From Paenibacillus sp. FSL R5-0766 (GTDB lineage: Bacteria > Bacillota > Bacilli > Paenibacillales > Paenibacillaceae), in NCBI RefSeq assembly GCF_037971845.1, contig NZ_CP150227.1, positions 1,550,001 to 1,614,000 of the forward strand: a stretch of 64,000 nucleotides of DNA, written 5' to 3'. Shown here piece by piece: positions 13,352 through 55,045 of the stretch (its first letter is position 1; each line of letters starts with the position of its first letter). The position numbers and the translations under genes are program-made. Below the pieces are notes generated by a model. That model had not been told where the DNA came from and did no database searches. It saw nothing but the letters and a program-made list of their open reading frames with translations.

Positions 13352-13506
13352 AACGACGGTAGTAGTGGAGGGGACGAAATCGATTCTGAAGAAGCAAAGC
13401 GTTCGCCTTTATCACCGGATTTTCCCCTTTGAAAGGGGGGATGAAAAAATCCGGGGATAACAGCGATCAAAAGAACGATTCGTAACCGTAACGGCCACAC
13501 CGCGTC
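13352..13506 (+). repeat. Dispersed palindromic element, copy A
   Basis: Shares with the copies at 38.2, 46.3 and 54.9 kb the core AGCGTTCGCCTTTATC...CCGGATTTT...GGGGATAACAGCGATC, arranged as a long imperfect hairpin. The outer arms differ from the other copies but still pair: GACGAAATCGATTCT with AGAACGATTCGT. The inner hairpin is CCGGATTTTCCCC / GGGGGGATGAAAAAATCCGG. It sits 50 nt before the start of the binding-protein gene, within a presumed operon. Confidence 0.75.
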
Positions 13507-13557
13507 ATCCCCAAGATTTTATTGTACGCGAGCCATATAAAAGGAGAGCGATTTCGT

Positions 13558-14916
13558 TTGAAAAAAAGGGGAACATTTGCATTAATGCTGGCTGCACTCA
13601 TGTTGGTCATCTCCGCTTGCGGAACAAAAGCTGAAACAAGCAGCCCGGCAAGTGGAGCACCAGCAGAAGCAGCTGCAGCTGAAACAACACAATTGACGTG
13701 GTGGCACTCCATGTCTGGCGCAGGGGAGAAAGCCATTAACCAACTCGCTTCCGACTTTAACGCTAGCCATCCGGAAATTCAGGTAAAACCCATCTATCAA
13801 GGGAAGTACGATGAAAGTCTGAACAAGCTCAAAGCATCCATGGGCTCAGACAGCGGTCCTGACATTATCCAGGTCTACGAGATCGGTAGCAAGTTCATGA
13901 TTGATTCAGGCATGATTACGCCAGTACAACAGTTCATCGACAAGGATCAGTTCGACCTGTCCCAACTGGAGCCAAACATCATCCGATACTACACCATCGA
14001 TGGCAAATTGAACGCGATGCCGTTTAACACATCGAACCCGATTCTGTACTACAACAAGGATATGTTCAAAGCAGCAGGTTTGGACCCGGAGAACCCGCCG
14101 AAGACGTATGAAGAGTTTGAACAAGCGGCAAAAGCATTGGCGAAAGATGGTAAGCCAGGTGCATCCATGGCGATCTACGGCTGGTTTATGGAACAGTTCT
14201 TCGCAAACCAGAATGCAGATTATGTAAACAATGGAAACGGAAGAACCGAAGCAGCTACAGAGTCTCTGCTGAACTCCGAAGCTGGAGTGAAGACATTAAC
14301 GTGGTGGAAAAAGATGATCGACGAGAAAACCCTCTCCAATTTGGGGCGTAGCACAGACGATACGACAGCAGCATTTACAGCACAACAAATCGGTATGACC
14401 CTCGATTCCACTGCTGGCCTGCGTAAAATCGTAGAAGGTTCAGGTGGGAAGTTTGAACTGGGAACAGGCTTCCTGCCTCGTCCAGCGGATGCCAAAGAAG
14501 GCGGCGTTGTGGTGGGTGGAGCAAGCTTGTACATCATGAACAACAAATCGGAAGCACAACAACAAGCGGCATGGGAATTCATAAAGTACTTGGCTACACC
14601 AGAGGTGCAAGCGAACTGGAGTGTTGCGACAGGATACTTCCCTATTACGACAGCAGCCTACAATGAGCAAGTATTAAAGGATAATATGGCGAAGTACCCG
14701 CAATTCCAGACAGCAGTCGATCAATTGCACGCTTCCGCCGATTCGACAGCAACATCCGGGGCATTAATGGGTGTATTCCCGGAAGCGAGACAACTTGTCG
14801 AAGGAGCGATTGAAACGGTCCTGAATGGACAAGGTACACCACAGGAAGCATTGGATGCAGCAGCCAAACAAATTACAGACAAGATTGCGCAATATAACAG
14901 TACGGTGAAGAAATAA
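13558..14916 (+). CDS. UgpB-like ABC transporter substrate-binding lipoprotein
   Basis: A 452-aa extracellular lipoprotein. The start is TTG at 13558 behind AAAAGGAGAG, giving a basic and hydrophobic signal peptide that ends in the lipobox VISAC (Cys near residue 21). An Ala/Glu/Thr-rich linker comes next, then the bacterial binding-protein family 1 fold. Its opening TWWHSMSGAGEKAINQLA matches the start of mature UgpB, the glycerol-3-phosphate binding protein. It delivers substrate to the two upstream permeases. Separate high expression is expected for a binding protein, and the hairpin-rich region before it may help. It ends in a terminator at 14939-14984. Confidence 0.9.
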   Translation: MKKRGTFALMLAALMLVISACGTKAETSSPASGAPAEAAAAETTQLTWWHSMSGAGEKAINQLASDFNASHPEIQVKPIYQGKYDESLNKLKASMGSDSGPDIIQVYEIGSKFMIDSGMITPVQQFIDKDQFDLSQLEPNIIRYYTIDGKLNAMPFNTSNPILYYNKDMFKAAGLDPENPPKTYEEFEQAAKALAKDGKPGASMAIYGWFMEQFFANQNADYVNNGNGRTEAATESLLNSEAGVKTLTWWKKMIDEKTLSNLGRSTDDTTAAFTAQQIGMTLDSTAGLRKIVEGSGGKFELGTGFLPRPADAKEGGVVVGGASLYIMNNKSEAQQQAAWEFIKYLATPEVQANWSVATGYFPITTAAYNEQVLKDNMAKYPQFQTAVDQLHASADSTATSGALMGVFPEARQLVEGAIETVLNGQGTPQEALDAAAKQITDKIAQYNSTVKK

Positions 14917-14938
14917 TTGTAGACGCTTTGGATTAAAA

Positions 14939-14984
14939 ACAGATGCGGCGCTTATTAATGATCGTCGCATCTGTTGTAATTTTA
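14939..14984 (+). terminator. Hairpin terminator after binding-protein gene
   Basis: The stem ACAGATGCGGCG / CGTCGCATCTGT is 12 bp with one wobble pair, followed by TTGTAATTTT. Confidence 0.75.
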
Positions 14985-15391
14985 TGATATCCTCTGAGAC
15001 CTGAGACGGATTTTTCTTAATGTACAACCTGTTTGAACAAATGATTGCAACGTTGATAACAAGATGAACGTTAACAGGTTATGTCAGATCACAGGCCAAG
15101 TAACAAAAGTATGGCTTAAAAGGTTGAGGGATTGTATGTCGAAGTAAAAGATATCTGATAAACTTGTGTCAATAGTTCGGTTTCATATACCACGGATAGG
15201 CCTAAAGTCGAGATGACGATTTATGTAAAAAATCCTCCTACTCGCTAACAATCGGCAAAACCTACGAATAATTGCAGGATGTATTCATTCTCCAGACGTG
15301 ATATAGCTTAGAAAGATTTCGCGAAAATCAGCGGGTATTGTAAAAATTAGTTCTCTATAGGCAAATGAATATAATATGTTTAACGCCCTAG
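14985..15391. other. Gene-free stretch
   Basis: About 400 nt with many stops in all frames. The only features I see are a possible TTAGTT / TATAAT pair (17-nt spacing) ending at about 15376, just before a strong terminator, which could make a very short transcript. Nothing else is supported. Confidence 0.4.
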
Positions 15392-15431
15392 AAACAGCAT
15401 GCAGACTTCCATCTGCATGCTGTTTTTTTTA
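15392..15431 (+). terminator. Strong Rho-independent terminator
   Basis: The perfect 13-bp stem AACAGCATGCAGA / TCTGCATGCTGTT is followed by eight T. No gene lies within 470 nt upstream on the plus strand, which leaves its transcript unknown. Confidence 0.9.
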
Positions 15432-15504
15432 CTAATTTGTGCCTGTTAATTTTCACCAATTGAAGGTATAGTAGACAGGATTATATTGAAGGAGTGTTGA
15501 CGAC

Positions 15505-15717
15505 ATGCAAGAACAACCCGTTTTAATCGCGCTATTTGCCATAGCGGCAGGAATTTTTAGTTTACTCGGTGGTATCAACAATTGGGATTGGTTTATGAAG
15601 AGTTTCAGAGCAGGAATTTTTGTGAAGACTATTGGAAGACAGGGCGCAAGAGTGGTATATGGTATTCTCGGTGTTGTCATGATTGTCATTGGTGTACTAC
15701 TGTTACTGATCGGATAG
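15505..15717 (+). CDS. Imm17-like small membrane protein
   Basis: A 70-aa protein starting with ATG behind AAGGAGTG. It has two hydrophobic segments (about residues 5-22 and 50-69) around a short polar loop with NWDWFMKS and FVKTIGRQGARVVYGILG. This matches what I know of the immunity-17 family, small membrane proteins proposed as immunity factors of polymorphic toxins. No toxin gene is nearby, so any immunity role is doubtful here, and a general membrane role is as likely. Confidence 0.7.
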   Translation: MQEQPVLIALFAIAAGIFSLLGGINNWDWFMKSFRAGIFVKTIGRQGARVVYGILGVVMIVIGVLLLLIG

Positions 15718-15902
15718 ATATTGGAAATGAACGAACTCACCAAGTATCATCTACATACGATGTTCATGAGCGAAGGCGAAGTAAGAGGATATGTGAGAAG
15801 AGTCAAATGGAAAAAGCGTGTGAATGCTTAAAGTAGCAGTATGCAGTATGACCAGGATAGAATATCAAATCAAATAGCATGCCTGAAAAAATCATAGTCA
15901 AA

Positions 15903-15938
15903 ACAAAAGACCACCGAAAAATTTCGGTGGTCTTTTTA
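15903..15938. terminator. Bidirectional terminator
   Basis: The stem AAAGACCACCGAAA / TTTCGGTGGTCTTT is flanked by A and T runs. It lies just past the 3' end of the minus-strand osmoprotectant permease gene and can also stop plus-strand transcription. Confidence 0.9.
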
Positions 15939-15969
15939 CCAAATTCAGGTTTATCCATCTCAATCTGGT

Positions 15970-18558
15970 TTAATTATCTTTTAAGTCTTCAACAGAGTTG
16001 ATATCCATATACGTTGGAACAACCAGACCTTGCTTGACTCCAGTCATACTGACAGCGATATCTTCGATCTTGTCTCCATATGTTTTCCAGTAGTCTCCAT
16101 GTGTAAGCGGGAGCCATACGGCTGGAGAAGCATCGATATCACCTGCTGCCAAGCCTGCCCACATGGGGCCAGCTTCAACTTGTAGTGCTTTGACGGTATA
16201 ACCGAGATCTGTCTCCAGCACATACTTCATCAGGTTGGTACTCGCAATCTCAGAGTCCCATGCAACATAACCGAGACGTAAATTGTCACCTTTAACAGGG
16301 GTTAACCCTTTGGTCCACTCTTCAATTTGGTCCGGATGTTTTTCTGCATAAGTCTTGGCAGCTTCTTCAGGCGAAACGCCCTTTTGAATGTCTACCATGA
16401 TTTCACTCATTTGATCCGCAGTCCAATTAAAACGAGAGAAGAACTCATAGGCAACGGGATGATCTTCTTTGATTCCCTTACGTCCAACCGTGTGAACTTC
16501 CTCTGCATCGCCAAAAATCAAGTCGGGGTCGTCCAAATACTTCAGATCATACTGATTGAACATCCAGTGCGGAGTCCAACCCGTAACGATGATTGGTTCT
16601 TCATTTTTATAAGCTTTGTCCAGCGATGCAGTCATCGCGGCTCCAGAGCCTTCAATCAGATTCCAGTTAGACAAATCATAATGCTTAATGGCGTTTGCTG
16701 TGGCCTTCATCAGACCTGCACCTGGATCAATACCAACGATTTGGTGATTAACCTCTTCACCCACATTAGCACTTGCCGATGGAGTGGAAGAAGCGGCACC
16801 TGTCTCCAGATCTGCAATCGAATTGACTTCGGTCATGTAACTAGGAACCACGAGGCCTGTACGTACACCTGTCATATTGGCCCCCAGATCGTCCACCTGG
16901 TCTTTGTAACGTTCCCAGTAGTCTGCGTGTGTCAATGGCAGCCAAGCTGCTGGAGAGGCATCTACGTCGCCTGAGGCAACACCCGTCCACATCGGTCCGG
17001 CTTCGACTTGCAGAGCGTTAACTTTATAACCCAATTCGTTTTCCATCACATATTTCAGCAAGTTGGTACTTGCGATTTCGGAATCCCAAGCCACATAGCT
17101 CAGTTTGAATGCATCACCGTTCACTGGAGTCAGACCTTTGGTCCACTCAGCAATCTGATCGGCATGTTTCTCGGCATAAGCTTTAGCTGCTTCTTCTGCG
17201 GATGTGCCACCCTGGATAGCAGTCATCATTTCACCCATTTCATCCGAGGTCCATTGGAAACGGGACAGGAATTCAAACGCAACAGGGTGATCTTCTTTCA
17301 GACCTTTACGGGCGATGGTATGAATTTCTTCAGCATCACCGAAAGATTTCTCAGGGTCTTCCAGATATTTCAGATCATACTTGTTGAACATCCAGTGTGG
17401 AGTCCAACCTGTAATAATGATTGGATCTTCATTTTTGATCGCTTTGTCCAGTGTGGCCGTCATGGCTGCACCAGATCCTTCAATCAGAGTCCAGTCAGTC
17501 AATTTATAGTCTTCGATCGCTTTTGCAGCAGACTTCATGATACCAGCCCCTGGATCGATACCAATAATCTGGTAGCTCACTTCTTGACCTACAGCATTGG
17601 CTGCTGAATTGTTGCCACCAGCCGAAGTTGTGCCACCAACGAAGTATTGTGAGAAACCAGCTACAAGCACAAGGAATGTTGCCGCAGCAGTGATCCATGC
17701 TTTTTGCTTGGCTGTAATACGTGAGGTCTTTTTGCGACCTGGCATAAACACATTTTGTGTAAAACGGTCCAGAACAATCGCGAGTACAACAACGGCCAGA
17801 CCGGCTTCGAAACCTTTACCGATTTGTAGTTGTGTTACAGCACGATAGACTTCCGCACCAATACCTTGTGCACCGATCATGGATGCAATAACAACCATGG
17901 ATAGTGACAACATGATGGTCTGGTTAATACCGGACATCACGGTAGGCAAAGCGAGTGGAAGTTGTACTTTGAACAACTTTTGCATGGAAGTTGAGCCGAA
18001 TGCATCGGCTGCTTCAACCAATTCACCAGATACCTGTCTGATACCCAGGTGAGTCAGACGAATCGTTGGGGGAATCGCAAATATAACAGACGCGATAACA
18101 CCTGGAACGACACCTAGACTAAAGAATGTAACCGCAGGCAGCAAGTAGACAAATGCAGGCATTGTCTGCATGAAGTCAAGCAGCGGTGTAATGATACGCG
18201 CCGCAGTTTTACTGTATGCAAGCCAGATTCCGACAGGCACACCAAGCAGGATCGAAACCAATCCTGAAGTGATAACCAGACCGAGTGTGTCCATCGATTG
18301 GGACCAGTATCCCAAGTTATCTACGAGCAAGAACCCGATAACCGTAAATAGTGTCAGTGGGAGTCGTCCTACGAGGAATGCAAGAACACCCAATATGGCA
18401 ATGAACAGGAGCGGATGGGGCAGCAAAAACAGCCCGGAGAAATATCCGACAACCGCTTGAATAACGGTGGAAATTACATTAAACAATCCGGATAGCGAGG
18501 AGCTCATCCAGTCAACGATGGATTCAATCCACGACGCTAGTGGTATTTTGGGAATCAT
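15970..18558 (-). CDS. opuABC: Glycine betaine ABC permease fused to two substrate-binding domains
   Basis: An 862-aa fusion. Residues 1-290 are an OpuAB/ProW-type permease with the docking segment VEAADAFGSTSMQKLFKVQLPLALPTVM. A single hydrophobic anchor follows near 290-310, then two consecutive OpuAC-type binding domains (about 325-590 and 610-862), joined by a Ser/Ala-rich linker. Both keep the aromatic ligand-cage words GWTPHWMF, VAWDSEIAS and AWLPLTH. Lactococcal OpuABC is a permease with one such domain; two in tandem is unusual. The ATG is behind AAAGGAGG and overlaps the ATPase gene by 35 nt. It imports glycine betaine or related solutes under osmotic stress. Confidence 0.93.
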   Translation of the reverse strand: MIPKIPLASWIESIVDWMSSSLSGLFNVISTVIQAVVGYFSGLFLLPHPLLFIAILGVLAFLVGRLPLTLFTVIGFLLVDNLGYWSQSMDTLGLVITSGLVSILLGVPVGIWLAYSKTAARIITPLLDFMQTMPAFVYLLPAVTFFSLGVVPGVIASVIFAIPPTIRLTHLGIRQVSGELVEAADAFGSTSMQKLFKVQLPLALPTVMSGINQTIMLSLSMVVIASMIGAQGIGAEVYRAVTQLQIGKGFEAGLAVVVLAIVLDRFTQNVFMPGRKKTSRITAKQKAWITAAATFLVLVAGFSQYFVGGTTSAGGNNSAANAVGQEVSYQIIGIDPGAGIMKSAAKAIEDYKLTDWTLIEGSGAAMTATLDKAIKNEDPIIITGWTPHWMFNKYDLKYLEDPEKSFGDAEEIHTIARKGLKEDHPVAFEFLSRFQWTSDEMGEMMTAIQGGTSAEEAAKAYAEKHADQIAEWTKGLTPVNGDAFKLSYVAWDSEIASTNLLKYVMENELGYKVNALQVEAGPMWTGVASGDVDASPAAWLPLTHADYWERYKDQVDDLGANMTGVRTGLVVPSYMTEVNSIADLETGAASSTPSASANVGEEVNHQIVGIDPGAGLMKATANAIKHYDLSNWNLIEGSGAAMTASLDKAYKNEEPIIVTGWTPHWMFNQYDLKYLDDPDLIFGDAEEVHTVGRKGIKEDHPVAYEFFSRFNWTADQMSEIMVDIQKGVSPEEAAKTYAEKHPDQIEEWTKGLTPVKGDNLRLGYVAWDSEIASTNLMKYVLETDLGYTVKALQVEAGPMWAGLAAGDIDASPAVWLPLTHGDYWKTYGDKIEDIAVSMTGVKQGLVVPTYMDINSVEDLKDN

Positions 18559-19753
18559 TCACAAGTTCCTCCTTTACTGCAACTTCACCGCTAAGTGCAC
18601 CCAGCAGGGCACCGCGGACGATAACACCTTGCAGACGGCCATTCTCACCAACAACAGCGAGAGGCACATGGGCTGAACTTACAATTTCGAACAATTCATG
18701 AATCAGGGTCTCAGGCGACACAGTAGGCCCGTCCGTGATCAGAATGTCTTTTAATACTTTGTTTTCACGCATCGCACGAGAAGCGTCTTCTGCTGTAATG
18801 ACACCAAGCAGCTTCTTCGAACGGTCAATGACAAACAGGTTGGAAACGCCACTTTCGCGCATTAATTCGAGGGCAACGCGAGGTCCGCGGTCAAGCGTGA
18901 TTGTTTCAGGGCGACGCATTACGTGAGATGCTGTAAGGACCTTGGACAGATCCACGTCTTCGACGAAGCGGGCCACATATGAGTTGGCCGGTTGAATCAT
19001 GATTTCTTCCGGTGTACCGATCTGCACAACTGCGCCGTCTTTCATGAGGGCAATACGATCGCCGATGCGCAGCGCTTCGTCCAAGTCATGGGTAATGAAA
19101 ATAATGGTCTTTTTCATTTTATCCTGAAGCTCGATCAACTCATCTTGCATATCACGACGAATCAATGGATCAAGTGCACTGAAGGCTTCATCCATCAGTA
19201 GTACTTCCGGGTCATTGGCAAGTGCACGCGCTAAGCCGACACGTTGCTGCATCCCGCCACTGAGTTCATCTGGCATTTTGTCTTCCCAGCCCTTAAGGCC
19301 AACCAGCTCAAGTGAGGTTTTTGCCTTCTCCCGGCGTACTTCCTTATCTACTTTTTGTATTTCCAATCCATACTCCACATTATCAAGAACGGTACGGTGC
19401 GGGAATAACGCAAACTTCTGGAAGACCATGCTAATCGTTTTCCGGCGCACTTCGCGCAATTGTTCTTTGTTCATCTTGCGTAGATCCTTACCATGGACCA
19501 GAATTTCTCCGGATGTTGGTTCAATCAGACGATTGAACATCCGAACCAGTGTGGATTTACCACTACCAGACAGCCCCATAATAACGAAAATTTCGCCTTC
19601 CTTAATGTCCATGTTGACCCGGTTGACACCAACCGTTATCTGTTTTTCTTTGGCCAACTTTTCTTTACCCCAACCTTGCTCCAGTAATTGCAGACCTTGC
19701 TCGGTTTGGGGTCCAAACAATTTACTTACGTTTCTCACTTCAAGTATGGTCAT
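18524..19753 (-). CDS. opuAA: Glycine betaine/proline ABC transporter ATPase with CBS domains
   Basis: A 409-aa ATPase. The start is the ATG at 19753 behind GAAGGGGTG; the frame stays open upstream but lacks a ribosome binding site. It has Walker A GLSGSGKS, a Q-loop (VFQKFALFPHRTV), the signature LSGGMQQR and Walker B VLLMDEAFSALD. After about residue 280 two CBS domains follow (MRESGVSNLFVID, VSSAHVPLAVV), which in OpuA-type systems sense ionic strength or c-di-AMP. It is the first gene of the operon, controlled from a promoter overlapped by a palindrome, with the GbsR-type gene divergent. Confidence 0.94.
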   Translation of the reverse strand: MTILEVRNVSKLFGPQTEQGLQLLEQGWGKEKLAKEKQITVGVNRVNMDIKEGEIFVIMGLSGSGKSTLVRMFNRLIEPTSGEILVHGKDLRKMNKEQLREVRRKTISMVFQKFALFPHRTVLDNVEYGLEIQKVDKEVRREKAKTSLELVGLKGWEDKMPDELSGGMQQRVGLARALANDPEVLLMDEAFSALDPLIRRDMQDELIELQDKMKKTIIFITHDLDEALRIGDRIALMKDGAVVQIGTPEEIMIQPANSYVARFVEDVDLSKVLTASHVMRRPETITLDRGPRVALELMRESGVSNLFVIDRSKKLLGVITAEDASRAMRENKVLKDILITDGPTVSPETLIHELFEIVSSAHVPLAVVGENGRLQGVIVRGALLGALSGEVAVKEELVNDSQNTTSVVD

Positions 19754-19928
19754 GTTTTCACCCCTTCTGATGTGTTGTGCACTTCGAACGGCTTTCAGCA
19801 TCCATAAGCCCATACACTTATGCGCCCAGCCACGAAATCCGGTAGTTGTTGCTTCGCTTCCCGTCTTTCTGGGTAACGAGTTTAATACTAACAATACTTA
19901 ACCAGTATATCAACCGAATAAACAGTAC

Positions 19929-20830: not shown

Positions 20831-20838
20831 TTACATGC

Positions 20839-20874: not shown

Positions 20875-20957
20875 TCTGTGCAATATCTTACTGATTTATA
20901 ATGAAGGAACACGATGTAAAAGATAATCTTGCCCATCGTATCAACCTATGTTCACAT

Positions 20958-31468: not shown

Positions 31469-33676
31469 TTATTGTGCTGAAGTCGCAGAAGGGACCGGCG
31501 CTGGTACTGGAACCGGTGCAGTTTCAGATGTCTCCTCTGCAGCTTCGGCTTCTTCAGCAGGTTCCGCTTGCGGCTGCTGAGCAGCCATCAGTTCAGCGAC
31601 GATTTGATCTGTTGGTTGGGTAAGCAGCGCATACATGATCGCAGCCTCTTCCTGACGAATCAGAGGTTTGCGGGAAAGGAAATCAACGGATCCATCTTCC
31701 AGCACTTTTACCTCAGGTCCATGGATACCAAGCTTCGCCATCATCTGAACGGCTGGTACAGCCCATGGGTCCGTGTGTCCCGCAAGTTTGACATCCGTGA
31801 ACAGTTCACTAGGATATTGCAGTTGCAGAATTCTCCACATCATGACCATGGCTTCCTGTCGGATAATCACTTGATCCGGCTTAAACTGTTGTTCGTCCGT
31901 CCCAGTAATCATACCCATTTCATATCCGAGTTGAATATATCCGGCTGCTGCATGATCTGCCCAGTCGGTGCCAGCAGGAGGCGTAGTTTTGCTGGGCTTC
32001 AATCCACTCAGTTTAAGGGTGTTCTCAATAAATTCAGCTCGTGTCACACCTGTTTTTGGTTGGAAAGACTTGTTGCCATCATTCTCATAATATCCAAGAG
32101 ATTGTATGGCGTAGATGGCTTCAGCATAAGGACTGTTCTCACGAACATCCCGGAAGCCCATAGGCTTTTGACCTTTTTTCTCATAGCCCATAGGGTTGAG
32201 GTAAGGTTCTTTCATGTATGTGGTGCCATCTGCATATTCTTTGAATGCTGTGAATTGACCAGTCAATTCATCTTTGAAGAGATTATCCTCCACTTGAATC
32301 AGGTTGCGTTGACCCAGGAATACATCGTTAATACTTAGTTGTCCTGGCTTATCCCCGCCACCTTTCAAGGAACTTACAATCGTGCTAAGTCGAAGATCCG
32401 CGTACAATCCGGTGAAGCGTTGCAGCTCAGCTGCGGATTGCGGCGTGTAATCCTTGAACTGTACAGGCTCTGCATATTGTGGGAAGAAGCTCTGAATGAA
32501 TGCAGGGTAGAACAGATTACGAAGTGCTCCATTTTGATTATACGTCAGGAAAACGCCTGTATTTTGCTCGGGAATAAGGAAGAGATAAGAGCTGAATCCG
32601 GTCAGGTCGCCTGCTTTTGTAATAACTTTTGGACTACTTCCTGCACCGGGAAGCTGAAATGCAGCTTCGAATCCATAGGTGGTGTTTGGTAACAGTGGAT
32701 GAATGGAAGAACGGTACTGTTCCATGCTTTTCACCGTGGATTCCTTGAGAATCCGCTCGTTGTCCTTCACGCCATCATTCAGGAAAGCGATCATGAACTT
32801 CCCAATGTCTTCTGCGGTAGACAACATGCCGCCTTGAGGCATAGGTGTTGGAGCAATAGTGTACAGATCAAGCGGATTGTGTGCCGCATCATAGCCTGTA
32901 GCCAGCTGATTTTGGAACTTTTTGTCCAGCATGAAACTGCTGTTATCCATTCCCAACGGTTTGAAGATATGTTGTTGCATGTAGGATTCAAAAGGCTCGC
33001 CGCTTACATTCTCAACAATCATGCCAAGCAGCAAAAATGAGAAATTATCGTACATGTAGGCGGTACCAGGCTCTCGAACGACAGGAGGCATATGTTGCTG
33101 TGCGTAATCCTCCATCGCTATGTACTTGTCAAAATCAGTATGGATGTCTTCCTGCTGCGGATCACGGATCTCGAATCCGGTCGTGTGTGTGAGCAGGTTC
33201 TCCACAGTTACAGGTTTGTCAAAAGGATTATCAAATTGGAGCCCTTTCACATAGGTCTGAAAGTCAGCTTGCAGATCAACCTTGCCTTGCTCTACCAGCT
33301 GCATTACAGCTGCTGACGTGAACGTTTTGGAGACAGAGGCTACACGGAAGGCCGTATTTTTCGGATCGATCGCTGTTTTGCTCTCCACATCGGAGAAGCC
33401 ATATCCTTTTTCCGCCAGTACTTTGCCATCTTTCACAACAACGACGGAGGCTCCCACATAATGGGCTTTTGCCTCAGGTGAATCGAAGAATGAATCCAGA
33501 AATGCTGTAGCTGATTCGGTTGTCAGCGCTTTCGTCTTTCCTTGTTCAGCAGCTACTGGAGTTGCGGTCTCCGCCTGAACTGCGGGTACCCACAGACTGA
33601 GAGACAGAACCACAGCCATAAAAGCTCCTGTTAGGGAGGTGAACCTGAAACGGGTCTTTCGTTTGGATAAATGCAT
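31469..33676 (-). CDS. Secreted class C beta-lactamase-like hydrolase with SLH domains
   Basis: A 735-aa exported serine hydrolase. The signal peptide is cleaved near VQA-ET (residue 36). The penicillin-binding-like fold carries SVSK (Ser114 nucleophile, Lys117) and the YDN triad tyrosine motif near residue 205. After about residue 520 surface-layer homology repeats appear (YAEAIYAIQSLGYYENDGNKSFQPKTGVTRAEFIE; GYIQLGYEMGMITGTDEQQFKPDQVIIRQEAMVMM), which tether it to the cell wall. The end is a low-complexity Glu/Ala/Pro tail. It probably acts on peptidoglycan stems or D-amino-acid peptides or esters, not mainly on beta-lactams. Confidence 0.9.
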   Translation of the reverse strand: MHLSKRKTRFRFTSLTGAFMAVVLSLSLWVPAVQAETATPVAAEQGKTKALTTESATAFLDSFFDSPEAKAHYVGASVVVVKDGKVLAEKGYGFSDVESKTAIDPKNTAFRVASVSKTFTSAAVMQLVEQGKVDLQADFQTYVKGLQFDNPFDKPVTVENLLTHTTGFEIRDPQQEDIHTDFDKYIAMEDYAQQHMPPVVREPGTAYMYDNFSFLLLGMIVENVSGEPFESYMQQHIFKPLGMDNSSFMLDKKFQNQLATGYDAAHNPLDLYTIAPTPMPQGGMLSTAEDIGKFMIAFLNDGVKDNERILKESTVKSMEQYRSSIHPLLPNTTYGFEAAFQLPGAGSSPKVITKAGDLTGFSSYLFLIPEQNTGVFLTYNQNGALRNLFYPAFIQSFFPQYAEPVQFKDYTPQSAAELQRFTGLYADLRLSTIVSSLKGGGDKPGQLSINDVFLGQRNLIQVEDNLFKDELTGQFTAFKEYADGTTYMKEPYLNPMGYEKKGQKPMGFRDVRENSPYAEAIYAIQSLGYYENDGNKSFQPKTGVTRAEFIENTLKLSGLKPSKTTPPAGTDWADHAAAGYIQLGYEMGMITGTDEQQFKPDQVIIRQEAMVMMWRILQLQYPSELFTDVKLAGHTDPWAVPAVQMMAKLGIHGPEVKVLEDGSVDFLSRKPLIRQEEAAIMYALLTQPTDQIVAELMAAQQPQAEPAEEAEAAEETSETAPVPVPAPVPSATSAQ

Positions 33677-38176: not shown

Positions 38177-38372
38177 CTATATAAATTGAACTAAACATTT
38201 ATACAAAACGGAGAGGACAGAAATAACCTGAGGAAGCAGAGCGTTCGCCTTTATCCCCGGATTTTCACTTTATGAAAAGAAATCAAAAAAATCTGGGGAT
38301 AACAGCGATCAGAAGGTTGTTCTGTCATCGGAGTGACCAGTGTAAATATATTCATTAGTTCAATTTATATAG
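38177..38372. repeat. Dispersed palindromic element, copy B, with perfect 18-bp outer arms
   Basis: Outer arms CTATATAAATTGAACTAA (38177-38194) and TTAGTTCAATTTATATAG (38355-38372) are perfect inverted repeats. Inside are ATTTATAC/GTGTAAAT, GACAGAA-N-AACC / GGTT-GTTCTGTC and the core AGCGTTCGCCTTTATCCCCGG...GGGGATAACAGCGATC. The whole can fold back as one ~95-bp imperfect hairpin. It lies between the convergent SgrR-like and serine-hydrolase genes and is the shortest full copy. Confidence 0.8.
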
Positions 38373-43446: not shown

Positions 43447-43449
43447 ACA

Positions 43450-46225: not shown

Positions 46226-46243
46226 ATAAGTGAACTACATTTT

Positions 46244-46474
46244 ATTTACACGGATACTACGATGACAGAACAACCTTCCAATCGCTGTTATCCCCAGATT
46301 TTTCGATTCCCTTTTCTCAAGGGAAAATCCGGAGATAGCATATGCTTCCGATGTAGCTTTCTTTCAGAAAGCTTTTAGGCGAGTATATGCTTTCGAAGTA
46401 GCTTTCTACAGAAAGCTTGTAGCTTCGCTTTTTCAGGATTTTTCTGTCCTCTCCGTTATCGTGTAAATGAGCAG
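46244..46474 (-). repeat. Dispersed palindromic element, copy C, with doubled internal module
   Basis: Read on the minus strand it begins TTTACACGATAACGGAGAGGACAGAA and ends TTCTGTCATCGTAGTATCC-GTGTAAA, with the GGGATAACAGCGATTGG core. Two tandem modules of 41 and 44 bp (46338-46378, 46379-46422), each built round AGCTTTCT...AGAAAGCT, are inserted before the inner CCGGATTTTCCC hairpin. Same modular layout as copy D. It lies after the alpha-galactosidase gene. Confidence 0.8.
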
Positions 46475-46520
46475 GTTTACTTATTAGATTGCTATTGTAT
46501 TTAAAGTTTTAATTTAAGGA

Positions 46521-48986: not shown

Positions 48987-49001
48987 ATAGTAGGATTGGA
49001 G

Positions 49002-49036
49002 AACAGCCTTCCCTAACCAGGAAGGCTGTTTGTTGT
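49002..49036 (+). terminator. Terminator after tex
   Basis: The stem AACAGCCTTCC / GGAAGGCTGTT with loop CTAACCA is followed by TGTTGT. It lies between the convergent tex and cmpA genes. Confidence 0.75.
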
Positions 49037-49166
49037 CGACAGTAATAGTCCCGTTATCCGTTCTAATTCCTCTAGTAAGTACGGTGGGCAATATGTGCAT
49101 TTTCTTAAAGTGCGTGTTCAAAAGGCCATCTTTCGTAATCCAATGCAGACTTTTATGAACAACCTC

Positions 49167-49310
49167 TTAAAGTTCGTTCTCCGCGCTGCGTGGTGTGCCA
49201 TTTGCTGGTTTGTTACGATAAAAGAACCAGCATTCGTTCAGCAACTTGATTTGCCGGCTGTCCTTTTTGTGAAATGCACGCATCAGTTGATTGCAAAGCC
49301 ATTGAGGCAA
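49167..49310 (-). CDS. cmpA: Cortex morphogenetic protein CmpA
   Basis: A 47-aa protein starting with TTG at 49310, seven bases after GAGGAGATA, a near-ideal ribosome binding site. Read MPQWLCNQLMRAFHKKDS...RQIKLLNECWFFYRNK, it matches the small CmpA family (37 aa in B. subtilis), which controls the spore cortex checkpoint by handing SpoIVA to ClpXP. The position on the opposite strand between tex and sprT is the same as in Bacillus. The C-terminal 12 residues (ANGTPRSAENEL) are an extension. Mother-cell expression during sporulation is expected from the family. Confidence 0.9.
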   Translation of the reverse strand: MPQWLCNQLMRAFHKKDSRQIKLLNECWFFYRNKPANGTPRSAENEL

Positions 49311-49416
49311 GGGTATCTCCTCCTCTTGCATAATTCATCTGTACGTTAGCATATGTGGCAATAGCCTGGACTGTGCGGGATAAGTGGAGGCCTCCGGCAA
49401 ATCAATCTTGTTCACT

Positions 49417-49457
49417 CAAAAAAAAGCACAAATCCCAATTCAGGGAAATGTGCTTTT
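49417..49457 (-). terminator. Terminator of the 49493 gene
   Basis: The stem AAAAGCACA / TGTGCTTTT has an eight-T run on the minus strand, 36 nt past the stop codon. Confidence 0.85.
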
Positions 49458-49492
49458 CGTTCTCATCATTATACAATGATAACTGCGGTGAA

Positions 49493-49876
49493 TTAGAGAG
49501 CTTCCATCTCTTCTTCATACCATTGTTCCAATTGGGCCTGAAGAGCTCGGATTTCGGTAAGCAGAGAAATCAAGGGATAATGGCTTTCACGTAATGCTGC
49601 AAAAGATTCTTCAAGCGCATTGATATAATCAAGGCCGCCGATGATAGTAAGATTTTCGTTTAGGAGATCGAGGCTGTCACATTCGGCGATCGCCCAAGGC
49701 AGGACAGGGACATCTGCTGCAGTGAGTTTATCAATTTCCTTGTGCAGGCGCAGGTTGAGCGCACTGAGTTGATAGGCGTAATCTGCGGGCATTTCCACGA
49801 ACTGCAATTGTTGTTCCTGCTGCAGGATGACATAGCGCATTGTAGGCATAACGAGTAATAATCTCCCCTCATACAT
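49493..49876 (-). CDS. Conserved-looking small hypothetical protein
   Basis: A protein of 127 aa from ATG 49876, or 118 aa from ATG 49849. Neither start is ideal: an AGGGGAG lies 13 nt before the second, and none before the first. It is soluble, acidic and mainly helical, with a coiled-coil-like C-terminus (EIRALQAQLEQWYEEEMEAL) and no signal or transmembrane segment. It has its own terminator and is divergent from the SprT-like gene. I do not recognise the family. Confidence 0.6.
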   Translation of the reverse strand: MYEGRLLLVMPTMRYVILQQEQQLQFVEMPADYAYQLSALNLRLHKEIDKLTAADVPVLPWAIAECDSLDLLNENLTIIGGLDYINALEESFAALRESHYPLISLLTEIRALQAQLEQWYEEEMEAL

Positions 49877-49968
49877 TCTACTTGACAGTGTAGCCTACGA
49901 AACGGTTAAAATTCAAGTATTATGCCGGAAAAACAAATGCTCCGAGGGGGTGCAAGGAGAGGATACCG

Positions 49969-50430
49969 ATGGAAAATGAGGAATTGCAACAATGGATTGA
50001 ACAGGTATCACTGGATCATTTCGGAGTGCCGTTCACCCATGAAGCGTTGTTTAACAGTCGCCTGACCACGACAGGTGGGCGTTATATGCTCAAAAGTCAC
50101 CGGATTGAGATCAATCCGCATCAACTCGAAGCCTATGGGCGAGATGAGGTTGAGAAAATCATCAAGCATGAGCTGTGTCACTATCATCTGCATATTCGTG
50201 GGCGCGGCTATCAGCATCGTGACCCGGAATTCAAGGCTTTATTGCAGAAGGTAGGTGGCTCGCGTTACTGCCAATCACTTCCTGACGGCAAAGGCAGAAA
50301 GCCGCTACCCTATCGTTATAAGCTGGTATGCAAGAGCTGTGGTACGGAATATTTGCGCAAGCGGAAAATAGATCCGAAGCGTTACCGATGTGGTCGTTGT
50401 GCGGGAAAACTGGGGCTTCACGACATATAG
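49969..50430 (+). CDS. SprT-like zinc protein (YdcK family)
   Basis: A 153-aa SprT-like protein. The zinc metalloprotease-like motif HELCHYH is at residues 67-73, followed by the basic RGRGYQHRDPEFKALL. A C-terminal zinc ribbon has two Cys pairs (CKSCGTEYLRKRKIDPKRYRCGRC). B. subtilis YdcK lies at the same position near tex and cmpA. SprT-like domains act in DNA-protein crosslink repair in eukaryotes; the bacterial role is not settled. The ATG is behind AAGGAGAGG. Confidence 0.93.
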   Translation: MENEELQQWIEQVSLDHFGVPFTHEALFNSRLTTTGGRYMLKSHRIEINPHQLEAYGRDEVEKIIKHELCHYHLHIRGRGYQHRDPEFKALLQKVGGSRYCQSLPDGKGRKPLPYRYKLVCKSCGTEYLRKRKIDPKRYRCGRCAGKLGLHDI

Positions 50431-50567
50431 TAATTTTGTTTTGGAGTATAGAGCGGATGGAGCTTAAGAAATTTGTAAATCTTTTGTTGGATTTCCTGTC
50501 ATTTATCTGATGTAAACTGTTCATCAGTCCACATAATCCAGTTTAAATGAAAAGGAGGAGTGACCCT

Positions 50568-51275
50568 TTGAAGGCCCACAGTGTATTGGTTGTTGATGAT
50601 GATCCCGATATCAGCAATGCGATCGAAATTTTTTTGCGTAGTGAAGGAATCGGGGTCTACAAGGCGTCAAATGGGGAAGAGGCATTGCAAAAGCTCCAGG
50701 CTCATTCTGTTCAGCTCATTATTATGGATATTATGATGCCTGGATTGGATGGGCTGCAGACGACACTGGAAATTCGTGAAACCTGTAATGTGCCAATTAT
50801 AATGTTGTCTGCCAGAACAGAGGATTATGATAAAATCGTAGGTTTGAACATCGGTGCGGATGATTACATAGCCAAGCCATTCAACCCATTGGAGCTTATG
50901 GCAAGGGTAAAGTCCCAGTTACGACGCTTCACCGGCCTGGGTGCGCAGATACATCAAAGTTCCGAAGATGCAGAACAGGAGATTCAGGTTCGTGGCCTGG
51001 TATATAACAAACAGAAGAAAACAATGACCTTGGAAGGAGAAGATGTTAGGCTGACGCCAACCGAATTTCACATACTTAGGCTTTTTATGGAGAATAAGGG
51101 CCGGATCTTTGCTATTGATGAAATCTATGAACGTGTATGGAAAGAGCCTGCCTTTCAACCGGAAAATACAGTCGCTGTTCACATCCGCAGAATCCGTGAG
51201 AAGATTGAATTTAATCCCAGAGAGCCCAAATATATAAAGGTGGTGTGGGGTATTGGTTACAAACTGGAAGAATAA
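50568..51275 (+). CDS. OmpR/PhoB-family response regulator (VanR-like)
   Basis: A 235-aa regulator starting with TTG at 50568 behind AAAAGGAGG. The receiver domain has the acidic pocket VVDDDPD, the phosphoacceptor Asp near residue 53 in IIMDIMMPGLDG, the Ser/Thr in MLSART and the Lys in YIAKPF. The C-terminal winged helix (LTPTEFHILRLFMENKGRIF, HIRRIREKIEFNPREPKYIKVVWGIGYKL) is typical. Its stop is one base before the kinase start, so the two form an operon. The VanR resemblance is general; no vanHAX genes are present. Confidence 0.93.
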   Translation: MKAHSVLVVDDDPDISNAIEIFLRSEGIGVYKASNGEEALQKLQAHSVQLIIMDIMMPGLDGLQTTLEIRETCNVPIIMLSARTEDYDKIVGLNIGADDYIAKPFNPLELMARVKSQLRRFTGLGAQIHQSSEDAEQEIQVRGLVYNKQKKTMTLEGEDVRLTPTEFHILRLFMENKGRIFAIDEIYERVWKEPAFQPENTVAVHIRRIREKIEFNPREPKYIKVVWGIGYKLEE

Positions 51276-51276
51276 T

Positions 51277-52869
51277 ATGCTGGCTTACGGAGTTAGGATA
51301 GCAGCGATGATTTGTTTTACACTGGTGTTTATGAAGCTTGCTTCATTGAGGTATGAGATGCGATTCATTTATAAAGATTGGAATGTATCTGGTGTTATAC
51401 CTTTGATCCTGCTCTTAGTCATTGGTACGGCGTTACTTGTGACTGCAAATCGTATACCTTTGCCTGAGAATAGCAAATATCGGAAGGTGACAATCTGGTG
51501 GAGTGAAAAACTTTCCTTGGATGCACATTTTATTACCTTATGTATAGGGTCCTTTCTACTGTTAAAAGTACTAAACGGGGTGACTTCAGATTATGGGATA
51601 ACTCCTTACTTTTTCACTCGTCGATGGATAAATGATATTTTTGTTTATTTTATAGGCATGTTCATCGCTGGTCTCGGAGTGTGGTTTGTTGGTGTGCATG
51701 TAAGAGGGGCTGTCCGGTATATCGGGAATATGTCCAGCCATAGGCCAATACGAAACGAGATATGGGTATGGAAATGGTACAGTTTGGTGAAAAAGATTTT
51801 GGAGCAAGGCGAGCCGACTGACAAAAAAAGAATTCAGCGTTTAATCTTATTATGTATGGTGCAATGTCTTATGCAATTAGCGGTTATTTCTCTCGCGTCC
51901 ATTAAGTCTTCAATGGTCACTCCATTTGTGTTTTTGACAGTTCTTATTAGTGTTTTCTTGGTATATAGTATGTTTCAACTGATTCATGTGGCGCAGCAAC
52001 TTACGCAAGCGGCTAAGGAAATGGGAGAAGGCCGGTTCAATGTGCAGTTCCCAGAGCATGTAACAGGCATAATGCAACCATTGGTGACACAGATGAGCGG
52101 AATGAGACAAGGGCTCCAGAATGCAATTAAAGAACAGGTTACGAGCCAACGTATGAAATCCGAGTTGATCGCTAACGTTTCTCATGATCTGAAAACACCT
52201 GTAACCTCTTTGGTTAGTTATATCGATCTGCTTAAGCGCGATGAGGGCACAAAGGAGGAGAAGGCTGGATACATTCAAGTTCTGGAGCGGAAAACGCAGC
52301 GTCTGTGTTTGTTGGTGGAGGACTTATTTGAAGCAGCGAAAATGGCGAGCGGAGATGTGGAACTTCATTTAAAACAGATAGACATGGGGGAGTTACTTCG
52401 ACAGGCTGTAGCAGAATATAGTGATTCGTTCGAGCAGGCAAAGTTACAGATAAGGATTCGAGAGGAGACTGAGCCTGTATACGCAATGGTGGACGGCAGC
52501 CGGATGTGGCGTGTTATGGAGAATATGTTGGGAAACGTTTTGAAATATGGTCTGCCCCAATCCAGGGTCTATATTGAACTGATCGAACAAGGAAATCAAC
52601 TGGAGTTTACGATCAAAAATGTATCCGCATACGAGATGGAGTTCTCATCGGATGAGATTTTTGAACGTTTTAAGCGTGGGGACCGTTCCCGTTCAACGGA
52701 GGGTTCAGGTCTAGGCTTGTCCATCGCCAGAAGCATTGTTGAATTGCATGAAGGTTCTATGGGAATACAAGTGGATGGAGACGTATTCAAAGTAAGTGTT
52801 TGCCTTCCACGAGTAGACAGGGACATGATCCAAAATACTACCCAACTGGCGATGACCTCTTCCTTCTGA
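51277..52869 (+). CDS. Membrane sensor histidine kinase (VanS-like)
   Basis: A 530-aa kinase starting at ATG 51277 right after the regulator stop. It has about six hydrophobic segments, more than the usual two (clear ones near residues 5-25, 38-57, 85-103, 118-138, 200-220 and 222-242). A HAMP-like stretch follows, then the HisKA box NVSHDLKTPVTSLVSYIDLL with the phosphorylated His near residue 305, and an ATPase domain with NMLGNVLKYG, the D/G box and RSTEGSGLGLSIARSIVELH. The many-segment sensor part suggests a membrane stimulus such as cell-wall stress. No target gene is adjacent. Confidence 0.92.
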   Translation: MLAYGVRIAAMICFTLVFMKLASLRYEMRFIYKDWNVSGVIPLILLLVIGTALLVTANRIPLPENSKYRKVTIWWSEKLSLDAHFITLCIGSFLLLKVLNGVTSDYGITPYFFTRRWINDIFVYFIGMFIAGLGVWFVGVHVRGAVRYIGNMSSHRPIRNEIWVWKWYSLVKKILEQGEPTDKKRIQRLILLCMVQCLMQLAVISLASIKSSMVTPFVFLTVLISVFLVYSMFQLIHVAQQLTQAAKEMGEGRFNVQFPEHVTGIMQPLVTQMSGMRQGLQNAIKEQVTSQRMKSELIANVSHDLKTPVTSLVSYIDLLKRDEGTKEEKAGYIQVLERKTQRLCLLVEDLFEAAKMASGDVELHLKQIDMGELLRQAVAEYSDSFEQAKLQIRIREETEPVYAMVDGSRMWRVMENMLGNVLKYGLPQSRVYIELIEQGNQLEFTIKNVSAYEMEFSSDEIFERFKRGDRSRSTEGSGLGLSIARSIVELHEGSMGIQVDGDVFKVSVCLPRVDRDMIQNTTQLAMTSSF

Positions 52870-52898
52870 GAGGAAGAAAGCAATACAATTAGGAAATC

Positions 52899-52939
52899 TT
52901 GACAGGTCTGTTGACTTGGATTATTAATCATGATAGATT
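52899..52939 (+). promoter_or_regulatory. Two overlapping promoters for the tRNA-Asn/Ser genes
   Basis: TTGACA (52899) with a 17-nt spacer to TATTAA (52922-52927), and TTGACT (52911) with a 17-nt spacer to TAGATT (52934-52939). Both point at the tRNA genes. Confidence 0.65.
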
Positions 52940-52959
52940 AATCTTATTCAAGTTAATTT

Positions 52960-53035
52960 TCCCTGATAGCTCAGTTGGTAGAGCACTCGACTGTTAATCG
53001 AGTTGTCACAGGTTCGAGCCCTGTTCGGGGAGCCA
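52960..53035 (+). tRNA. tRNA-Asn (GTT)
   Basis: A 76-nt cloverleaf with encoded CCA. The acceptor pair is TCCCTGA / TCGGGGA, the anticodon loop is CTGTTAA with GTT, and the TPsiC arm contains GGTTCGAGCC. Confidence 0.97.
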
Positions 53036-53041
53036 TTTCTT

Positions 53042-53130
53042 GGAGAGATACCCAAGTGGCTATAAGGGGACCCTCTGCTAAGGGGTTAGACTGCGTAAGC
53101 GGTGCGAGGGTTCGAATCCCTCTCTCTCCG
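53042..53130 (+). tRNA. tRNA-Ser (GCT)
   Basis: An 89-nt class II tRNA with a long variable arm and no encoded CCA. The acceptor pair is GGAGAGA / TCTCTCC, with anticodon GCT in CTGCTAA. It lies 6 nt after tRNA-Asn, in one transcript. Confidence 0.97.
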
Positions 53131-53217
53131 TTAGGTTCGTCGGAGCATAAGCTTTGTTAGCAATACTTCGCAGTCTCGAACGAAGTGAGAGTACCCCTCT
53201 CTCCGTTCTGATTGCAC
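53131..53217. other. Spacer with a repeat of the tRNA-Ser 3' end
   Basis: CCCTCTCTCCGTT occurs at the tRNA-Ser 3' end and again at about 53195-53207, 13 identical bases. It could be a remnant of an integration site at the tRNA or a processing artefact; no integrase is near. Confidence 0.4.
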
Positions 53218-53272
53218 AAAAAATCCTCTTCACATTAGACTGGTTAACGGTCAGTGTGAAGGGGATTTTTTG
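53218..53272. terminator. Strong bidirectional terminator
   Basis: The stem AAAAATCCTCTTCACA / TGTGAAGGGGATTTTT with long A and T runs ends the tRNA transcript and the convergent ArsR-type gene. Confidence 0.93.
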
Positions 53273-53312
53273 CGTTTACTGATCTTCGGTTATTCCTCGT
53301 ATACGCTTCTGC

Positions 53313-54011
53313 TTAAAGTGTAATGCTTAACACCTCGTATAAACCTTTCTTGCCTGCTTCCGTTACTTCGACAGAGCGACTTCCTGTTTTTTGACGAATC
53401 CAGTCCAGTTCCGCTAACCGATGTCTGAGTTGTTCCCCAAGCATACCTGAGAGATGATGACGGCGTTCGCTCCAATCCAGACATTTGCGAGCGATGGCCC
53501 GGCGTGATCCCGGCTTCATCTGAAGTTCAATTCCGAACGTAGTGAACCACTGTATTCCTTTCTCTGTAACTTGATAATCCTTGCTGTGTGCCTCTTCGGG
53601 CTCTGAAAGATACCCCTTCTGTACTAACGCTTCACAGAGCGAGATTCCCAATTTCCCGGCCAGATGACCATAACAGGTCCGTGCATGACTCAGTTGTTGA
53701 AGCTGATTGGATTGTTTGAGAGAACGGATCTGTACAGGCGGAGCAATACTGGCCATCGTTTCAATCAGATTAGCAATTTCTTTGTTTGCCAGACGGTAGT
53801 ATCGATGGCGTCCTTGTTGTTCAACTTCAAGTAATCCTCCCTCTACGAGTTTAGCTAGATGGCTGCTTGCCGTCTGGGGAGTGACACTTGCCATATGAGC
53901 AAGCTCTCCTGCGGGCAACGCACGCCCATCTAGCAAGGATGACAGAAAAATAGCACGGCTTGGATCAGCGATTAACGACGCAATAACAGTAATATTCGGA
54001 TATACATTCAT
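53313..54011 (-). CDS. ArsR-family transcriptional regulator
   Basis: A 232-aa protein. The N-terminal ~90 residues are an ArsR winged helix (ADPSRAIFLSSLLDGRALPAGELAHMASVTPQTASSHLAKL and a wing ending QGRHRYYRL). The long C-terminal part has no metal-binding Cys cluster and includes YQVTEKGIQWF, typical of the YdfF-like group in Bacillota. It is divergent from a flavin-reductase-like gene 107 nt away, which it probably controls. The ATG start has a weak ribosome binding site. Confidence 0.88.
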   Translation of the reverse strand: MNVYPNITVIASLIADPSRAIFLSSLLDGRALPAGELAHMASVTPQTASSHLAKLVEGGLLEVEQQGRHRYYRLANKEIANLIETMASIAPPVQIRSLKQSNQLQQLSHARTCYGHLAGKLGISLCEALVQKGYLSEPEEAHSKDYQVTEKGIQWFTTFGIELQMKPGSRRAIARKCLDWSERRHHLSGMLGEQLRHRLAELDWIRQKTGSRSVEVTEAGKKGLYEVLSITL

Positions 54012-54118
54012 ACTTCGATCATATCTGAACTATTACTGTATTACAATCCAGTTGTATCGTCCCATATGGGTCAGATTGAGCTTATAAATCATTGGAATGG
54101 GAACAGGAGAGGTACAGG

Positions 54119-54778
54119 ATGAAAAAGATAACGAAACAGGACTTTGCTACAGGGCAGTTGTCCGAGAGTCCAGCAGTGATTCAACATGAAACGATTAATC
54201 CCAGTATTTTATATTATGGTACGCCTGTATTGCTGCTAAGCACATTAAATGAGGATGGGTCAACCAACCTGTCACCATTATCTTCGTCTTGGGCGCTTGG
54301 AGACTGTCTGGTTCTCGGTCTAGGTACTCAAGGCAAAGCCTATGAAAATCTGAGTCGACATCGGGAGTGTGTGATTAATTTGCCGGATGCGACTATGTGG
54401 AAACAGGTTGAGGCATTGGGTCGTTATACGGGAGTTAGCCCGGTTCCTGAGGAGAAAAGGCAGATGGGCTATGAATATTGTCATGATAAATTCACCGTAG
54501 CTGGACTGACATCTGAATCATCGGTTCAGGTGGCTCCAGATAAAATAGCTGAATGTCCGCTCCAGATTGAAGCGGCTGTACAACACATACGTATTCCCGA
54601 ACATACACCGTTCATGGCGATTGTGGAAGTGAAAGCGGTGAAGGTGCACGCGCACACAAGGCTAATATCTGGACCGAACAAGATTAATCCAGAAGAATGG
54701 CATCCGCTGATATATAATTTCAGACATTATTACGGATTGGGAGAGAGACAAGGGGGCAATTTTCGGGCAGAGAATTGA
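54119..54778 (+). CDS. Flavin reductase-like (split-barrel FMN) protein
   Basis: A 219-aa protein with the FMN-binding split-barrel fold of the DIM6/NTAB flavin reductases (PVLLLSTLNEDGSTNLSPLSSSWALGDCLVLGLGTQGKAYENLSRHRECVINLP). The ATG at 54119 follows CAGGAGAGG. It probably reduces or binds flavin for another enzyme. It pairs with the divergent ArsR-type gene. The dispersed palindromic element, copy D, starts 40 nt after its stop. Confidence 0.88.
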   Translation: MKKITKQDFATGQLSESPAVIQHETINPSILYYGTPVLLLSTLNEDGSTNLSPLSSSWALGDCLVLGLGTQGKAYENLSRHRECVINLPDATMWKQVEALGRYTGVSPVPEEKRQMGYEYCHDKFTVAGLTSESSVQVAPDKIAECPLQIEAAVQHIRIPEHTPFMAIVEVKAVKVHAHTRLISGPNKINPEEWHPLIYNFRHYYGLGERQGGNFRAEN

Positions 54779-54817
54779 CCTGAGTAGAGGCTTTTTATTA
54801 TAAAAGATGAATTAATC

Positions 54818-55045
54818 ATTTACACGATAACGGAGAGGACAGAAAAAAACTGAAAAAGCGAAGCTAAAAGCTTTCTGAAAGAAAGCTACTTCGAAAGCAC
54901 ACACTCGCCTAAAAGCTTTCTGAAAGAAAGCTACATCGGAAGCATACGCTATCACCGGATTTTCCCCTTTAGGAAAGGGAATAGAAAAAATCTGGGGATA
55001 ACAGCGATTGGAAGGTTGTTCTGTCATCGTAGTGCCAGTGTAAAT
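54818..55045 (+). repeat. Dispersed palindromic element, copy D, with doubled internal module
   Basis: Begins ATTTACACGATAACGGAGAGGACAGAA and ends TTCTGTCATCGTAGTGCC-AGTGTAAAT. The inner core is CCGGATTTTCCCCTTT...AAATCTGGGGATAACAGCGATTGG. Two tandem modules (54864-54908 and 54909-54949) repeat CTAAAAGCTTTCTGAAAG / AAAGCTACWTCG. Weaker pairing continues outward to about 54797 and 55068. Copies C and D are about 85-90 per cent alike by eye and lie in opposite orientation 8 kb apart. Confidence 0.82.

Follow-up and report, generated by a model that had tools for sequence, protein, structure and literature searches.

Bacterial miniature inverted-repeat transposable elements (MITEs) are for the most part considered selfish, recent in origin and restricted in distribution. 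RUP (repeat unit of pneumococcus) is a small intergenic MITE of S. pneumoniae with 108 reported copies, a TA target and IS630-like terminal inverted repeats (TIRs), for which mobilisation by IS630-Spn1 has been proposed (PMC2229807, PMC3049150). The family analyzed here is represented by four hairpin copies, at approximately 13.37-13.50, 38.18-38.37, 46.23-46.48 and 54.80-55.07 kb, in a 64,000-nt stretch of Paenibacillus sp. FSL R5-0766 (contig NZ_CP150227.1, positions 1,550,001 to 1,614,000; hereafter the window). It resembles RUP and IS630-Spn1 in being a small intergenic MITE with a TA target and the ends of an IS630 element. Unlike RUP as described, it contains a core that spans several families of an order, has near-invariant loops and occurs with other outer ends. 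The unusual part of the family is this strand-polarised structured core, whose distribution exceeds that of a single MITE and which is mostly retained in place and has varied ends. On the basis of sequence comparisons, the family is probably a structured RNA module which has been spread as the cargo of MITEs and is constrained in mRNA.

Other described repeats share single features with this family. ERIC/IRU elements are co-transcribed with their neighbours and show an orientation-dependent RNase E effect, transcripts of NEMIS/Correia elements were proposed to be cut by RNase III, and both are described with TIRs and TA at their termini, as found here (PMC2229807). They belong to other hosts and are set apart from the Paenibacillus family by description, not by sequence. 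We know of no order-wide covarying core for ERIC or NEMIS. MRSC-65-2 and other mobile or repeat sequence candidates were described in a survey of non-coding RNAs in 50 genomes; like the family studied here, candidates of this type consist of a single long covarying stem, often have dozens of copies per genome and are open as to an RNA or DNA role (PMC11109978). MRSC-65-2 was found in diverse phyla and has the repeat UYCCGG, whereas the present family is found in one order and has a GNA mini-hairpin and the AACAGCGAUCGGAAG loop. Compared by the main-text description, the family may nevertheless be identical to a candidate not listed there (PMC11109978). BOX and SPRITE of pneumococcus are transcribed repeats, BOX being modular with TIRs and duplications (PMC3049150); their layout, compared by description and not by sequence, differs from that of the Paenibacillus element. 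REP/BIME elements with a RAYT transposase were rejected, since their palindrome measures 20-40 bp (PMC3733652) and the core model described below has 132 positions.

The preliminary description did not recognise the elements as a described family, and no relevant Rfam match was found. At gathering score, Rfam 15 identified five tRNAs and one ureB match in the window, none of them on the elements. Relaxed scans of seven loci returned over the element only hairpin families below their cut-off, mostly microRNAs, the best being mir-1890 (34.8 of 76 bits, E 0.00096). The family was not named in the literature searched by core strings and by words (word-search results inspected in part), and "Paenibacill" is absent from the main text of PMC11109978, PMC10969869 and PMC8632094. 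A possible likeness of GGGGATAACAG to 23S rRNA and the I-SceI site was dropped because most copies from other genera read GACAACAG at this position.

In Paenibacillus the family is well supported as an IS630/Tc1-mariner-type MITE and ordinary in kind. The elements are small, have TIRs of the IS630 family and a duplicated TA, the 13.4-kb copy of the window being without such ends. The family ends are TATAARTTGAACTAA. Both TIRs were present in 55 of 90 copies examined; the junction CTA..TAG was found in 25 of these 55, and a left-hand C and a right-hand G were each present in 37. When the window was compared with the matching stretches of two sister genomes, the 38.2- and 54.9-kb copies were absent from both and the flanks met (for the 54.9-kb copy, TTATTA directly followed by GTCGGGG in both sisters), while the site was occupied in both genomes for the 13.4- and 46.3-kb copies. 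For 24 of 91 copies of the own genome a place could be assigned in the fetched sister stretches: 12 sites were filled and 8 were empty, 2 differed between the sisters (one filled, one empty), and 2 were unclear. The empty sequence GACAACTAGACAGC compared with the filled GACAAC-TA-[element]-TA-GACAGC gives a TA duplication at (C)TAG. It is directly legible at E655435, E1405382 and E1697143, and with one change at E1604994; at the other empty sites it is illegible because the sister sequence is too different.

The preliminary description had reported that no transposase is present. With respect to DDE_3 (PF13358), the only transposase family searched, this is correct for the own genome (0 matches) but not for the genus, in which 21 of 75 genomes gave DDE_3 matches, 19 of them above the cut-off. 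Among 30 DDE_3 loci retrieved, five, from four genomes, are elements of about 1.17 kb which carry TATATAARTTGAACTAA, the terminal sequence of the MITE, at both ends within two mismatches; in one element both ends are exact. A relative at locus L336 has an open frame of 355 aa and ends that are 3 and 2 mismatches off. We infer from these shared ends that the copies were mobilised in trans by an IS630-type transposase with the same ends. The earlier suggestion of a MITE-like element is thus borne out in this genus by TIRs, TA duplication, the empty sites that were to be looked for, and same-ended IS630-type elements in sister species.

The structured core comprises about 130 nt and forms one long bulged stem. 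Its near-invariant parts are the left loop GRAGAAGCGNAGCGN, a CU/CA internal loop and the right loop AACAGCGAUCGGAAG. For alignment A1, 21 sequences were chosen, of which two were dropped before alignment; in the remaining 19 copies of the own genome, plain MAFFT and RNAalifold gave double changes in 14 of 32 pairs. In alignment A4, which contains 103 copies (101 distinct) picked and aligned by covariance model, at least one double change with pairing kept was found in 32 of 34 pairs. The paired cells amounted to 95.1% compared to 80.4% after shuffling, and the covariation score was 0.450 compared to 0.169 for shuffled alignments and at most 0.099 with slid partners. Alignment A3 gave the same picture (95.7% and 75.6% paired cells, respectively); all 83 rows entered this count, and a separate one was made with 71 rows after removal of partial antisense and two distorted rows.

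In the sense reading, G-U pairs outnumbered A-C mismatches by 105 to 54 over 32 pairs. Without one poorly paired position (itself 20 to 36) the ratio was 85 to 18, and without the G-U hot spot as well it was 48 to 18. The excess of G-U over A-C suggests that it is the sense strand that folds. A structured RNA family, the second possibility in the preliminary description, is likewise supported by the covariation beyond shuffled and slid controls and by the wobble bias toward one strand, as well as by the sense placement in three of four samples and the slower change of the core in place that are reported below. The two possibilities, MITE and structured RNA, are compatible rather than mutually exclusive and hold together.

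A genuine family was expected to have further copies in the genome. In the own genome (7.0 Mb, one contig), 187 matches to the 15-mer GGGGATAACAGCGAT with at most one mismatch were found, compared to none for the reversed control, and blastn gave at least 42 matches (40 of 256 candidates scored). The 15-mer was present in 66 of 75 genomes of the genus, many with 50-190 matches (controls 0-2); P. amylolyticus, P. xylanexedens, P. taichungensis, P. pabuli and P. polymyxa are named hosts among the pattern matches listed. Covariance model R1 (132 positions), built from the 19 copies of A1, detected the element in 13 of the 19 genera of the own family (196 of 245 genomes). In the order, 81 of 119 genomes were positive, including families f54, f56 and f60, and f52 once and weakly. 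Of the class, 27 of 299 genomes were positive and all 27 belong to the own family; stricter filters were used in the large searches, and negative results elsewhere are therefore provisional. Plasmid and phage collections gave no match to the one query run against each. Between 3.23 and 3.93 Mb of the own genome, approximately 0.7 Mb around the likely terminus, no exact core word was found, compared to 74 in the first 3.23 Mb.

Outside the own genus, other outer ends were found. Ends similar to TATATAARTTGAAC occur in some copies of genera g17 and g18 (L241, L244, L257, L285) and in further copies of genome G211. The sequence TGTTGA precedes the core in 10 of 22 copies of G140, with variants in others, and GGTGAAA-like ends were recognised by eye in some of the five G155 copies. 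Of 62 copies from other genomes, 19 have an outer inverted repeat superior to that in any of 30 shuffles. Thus, the outer ends vary from genus to genus, and no single set is linked to the core.

The placement of the copies was analyzed relative to the neighbouring open reading frames (ORFs). None of 87 copies in the own genome lies inside an ORF. Where both neighbours have the same direction, the element was in sense in 54 of 62 cases in the own genome, in 49 of 61 in named Paenibacillus and, for a set of four genomes belonging to other genera, in 25 of 32. Copies close to the end of a locus were omitted from these counts (less than 1.2 kb in the own genome; less than 0.9 kb in named Paenibacillus and in the best matches of other genera, the fourth sample). 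For the four genomes, 2 of 22 G140 copies without two-sided neighbours were dropped, and G170 copies are absent (no pattern match).

Substitutions were counted in 14 ortholog pairs, each consisting of an own copy and its counterpart in a sister genome; of the two sister comparisons made for E1563453, one entered the sums. The core had 62 substitutions in 1,855 positions, the outer arms 67 in 1,021 and the flanks 427 in 7,506. The pooled difference between core and flanks is significant (P 2.5e-5), also without three odd pairs, and in 11 of 14 pairs the core had fewer substitutions per position than the flanks (Wilcoxon P 0.035). In two pairs the arms are scrambled and the core is largely kept. 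Of seven genomes searched in genus g156, six contain 1-3 copies and the other, G604, contains 39. Copies lie between citZ and icd (four genomes; citrate synthase and Iso_dh by Pfam) and between two genes which we take to be ilvC and leuA (four genomes). In a survey of icd, the element was found at the citZ-icd site in 9 of 19 g156 genomes and in none of 11 others. The nine citZ-icd orthologues show double changes in 8 pairs, more than all 500 shuffles (0/500). In the ilvC-leuA gap (L434, L437, L448, L452), a second conserved palindrome, CACAGGGAGTGAT..CACTCCCTGTG, is located upstream of the element.

TIRs, TA duplication and empty sites, the widely differing copy numbers among genomes, and the absence and remnants of the element at citZ-icd would also fit a plain selfish MITE, in which the whole palindrome including the core is kept for mobilisation only and the copies are neutral after insertion. 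However, an IS630-type transposase requires just the ends of an element, and the core occurs also with other outer ends and in other families. As orthologous copies are mostly better conserved in the core than in the flanks and a sense orientation bias was found in three of four samples, this explanation is considered unlikely.

A less probable explanation is that the fold acts as single-stranded DNA, for example as a signal for recombination or replication of the attC-like or HUH type, to which the IS630 ends were a late addition. The left loop holds a GC-GNA-GC mini-hairpin (GNA in 93 of 103 copies, AC..GU double change in 5), GNA triloop mini-hairpins are very stable in DNA, and tandem core copies exist (three, spaced at 182 bp, in L392 and pairs in L158 and L273). 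Among the matches listed, 75 of 100 exact own copies are on the leading strand, with origin and terminus placed by the GC skew of the loci. Against an orientation directed by replication, which was rejected, copy direction follows the genes: 5 of 6 copies between lagging-strand genes have the direction of these genes, and in convergent or divergent gaps neither direction clearly prevails (14 to 11). A role as a DNA element is thus improbable. An ordinary riboswitch-like cis-regulatory leader of one pathway, which the near-invariant loops, the covariation and the many own copies ending shortly before a start codon might suggest, can be dismissed as very improbable given the 187 core-word matches in the own genome and a position that is not consistently upstream (sense gene downstream in 67 and upstream in 66 of 87 own copies).

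For a structured RNA module spread as MITE cargo, the molecular function would most likely be that of an mRNA processing or stability element read by a host RNase or RNA-binding protein, similar to what has been proposed for ERIC and NEMIS (PMC2229807). Mobilisation in trans by an IS630-type transposase, of which the own genome has no DDE_3 trace, would place a copy between genes, and the sense transcript would then fold into the bulged stem-loop. A host factor, either a double-strand RNase or an RNA-binding protein, may recognise this structure and thereby separate or stabilise the mRNA of the neighbouring cistrons. Copies that act on the neighbouring mRNA would be retained, and we propose that such retention would give rise to the orientation bias, the constraint on the core and the shared sites at citZ-icd and ilvC-leuA.

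Several points weigh against this proposal. A3 and A4 contain only matches picked and aligned by the model, which inflates the pairing. In the best matches of other genera the sense orientation (24 of 39) is not significant (P 0.20), and 18 of 62 such matches overlap an ORF call of at least 70 aa. The own and the named Paenibacillus samples are from one genus and may share orthologous copies, and neighbours were defined by a longest-ORF rule, not by annotation. Genomes of the genus with only 1-5 matches to the 15-mer are near the control level (0-2) and uncertain. Without the three odd pairs, the difference between core and arms is not significant (P 0.098), and gene conversion between copies could be partly behind the constraint on the core. 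Ten of 19 g156 species have no match at citZ-icd, three of them with apparent remnants (L460-L462), and the element is therefore not essential there; one ilvC-leuA copy (L255) is antisense. The five same-ended insertion sequence copies have no intact transposase frame, their longest open stretch being 195-236 aa, and the outer ends in other genera are regarded as those of transposons from their end sequences.

A more far-reaching version is possible, although we put it forward only tentatively: an ancient functional RNA module of the order would have been repeatedly captured by unrelated small transposons. Transposition would thereby have introduced one regulatory RNA structure into dozens to hundreds of transcripts in each genome, and its near-invariant loops would be read by a dedicated host factor. 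The end types behind repeated capture would be the IS630-type here and the TGTTGAAAA-type and GGTGAAA-type in other genera.

The features of the window copies are listed in Table 1.

Table 1. Copies of the element and their parts in the window (CM, covariance model).
Feature	Position	Strand	Description
13.4-kb copy	13366..13497	+	Divergent, structured core only, no IS630-type TIR; CM match 127.9 bits
38-kb copy	38180..38369	+	Complete MITE, 190 bp, young; TIR TATAAATTGAACTAA / TTAGTTCAATTTATA
38-kb copy, structured core	38209..38339	+	CM match 145.4 bits; fold z -4.6
38-kb copy, left TA of target duplication	38178..38179	.	Right TA at 38370-38371; from sequence
46.3-kb copy	46226..46484	-	Older; degenerate ends, limits approximate; CM match 51.8 bits at 46251-46376
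54.9-kb copy	54801..55065	+	TA left (54799-54800), TG right (55066-55067); CM match 63.6 bits
Two tandem 45-bp hairpin modules, left loop of 54.9-kb copy	54864..54950	+	90% identical over 42 nt compared, 45-nt spacing

All four long imperfect palindromes of the preliminary description exist. They occur in both orientations and are intergenic with respect to ORFs of 90 aa and longer. The 13.4-kb copy lies upstream of a solute-binding-protein ORF (13522-14916; SBP_bac_8). The lengths of the delimited copies at 38 kb and 54.9 kb (190 and 265 bp) are too short for a transposase gene. The TA of the 38-kb copy was read from the filled site and other copies because the sister sites lack a further 14 bp. 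The 46.3- and 54.9-kb copies are 84-95% identical in the arms compared, and the 38-kb copy is 81-86% identical to both over 72-74 nt.

The words said to be shared by the copies were found in part. GGGGATAACAGCGATC has perfect matches at 13453 and 38295; at 46280 (minus strand) and 54994 it differs in one position, the final T. With up to three mismatches it has 6 matches in the window compared to 0.46 expected; four are the copies, one is the opposite arm at 38243 and one, with three mismatches, lies at 33368. In contrast, only two of the four copies contain an exact AGCGTTCGCC, since hairpin modules of the AAAGCTTTCTGAAAGAAAGCT type are inserted in that loop in the 46.3- and 54.9-kb copies, the former having two additional modules in its left loop. 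The end words ATTTACAC are missing from the 13.4-kb copy, whose different arm is still complementary (GACGAAATCGATTCT / AGAACGATTCGT).

Folding of each copy as a hairpin was confirmed for the three copies folded (13.4, 38 and 54.9 kb), which are more stable than shuffled sequences. As RNA, z in sense was -4.6 (38 kb) and -3.7 (13.4 kb) and the antisense values were -3.4 (38 kb) and -3.3 (13.4 kb); as DNA, z was -6.7 (38 kb) and -4.2 (54.9 kb). No intrinsic terminator was found between 38.1 and 38.45 kb, and the inserted module at 54.9 kb gave one terminator-like match, on the minus strand (0.2 in shuffles); a role as intrinsic terminator was rejected on these grounds.

Three further features of the window were observed. 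An intergenic pair at 3143-3265 and 7832-7960 (83% identical over 103 nt) has GTAAACCCCTTCTCGTG followed by a terminator-like GC hairpin and a T run; these may be paired small RNAs with a C-rich stretch and have no Rfam match at gathering score. The Rfam 5'ureB sRNA match at 62552-62847 (plus strand, 114.9 bits) lies opposite a 572-aa minus-strand ORF (61281-62999) and may merely mirror conserved urease coding sequence. A 300-nt direct repeat (68%) at 16006-17133 within one 862-aa ORF (15970-18558, minus strand) is perhaps a domain duplication.

An order-wide core that is apparently constrained in place and has varied ends would provide a clear example of the spread of a regulatory RNA by a mobile element. 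Close sister species offer copies, empty sites and ortholog pairs, so that the old question of whether such repeats are useful to the cell can be tested directly in this family.

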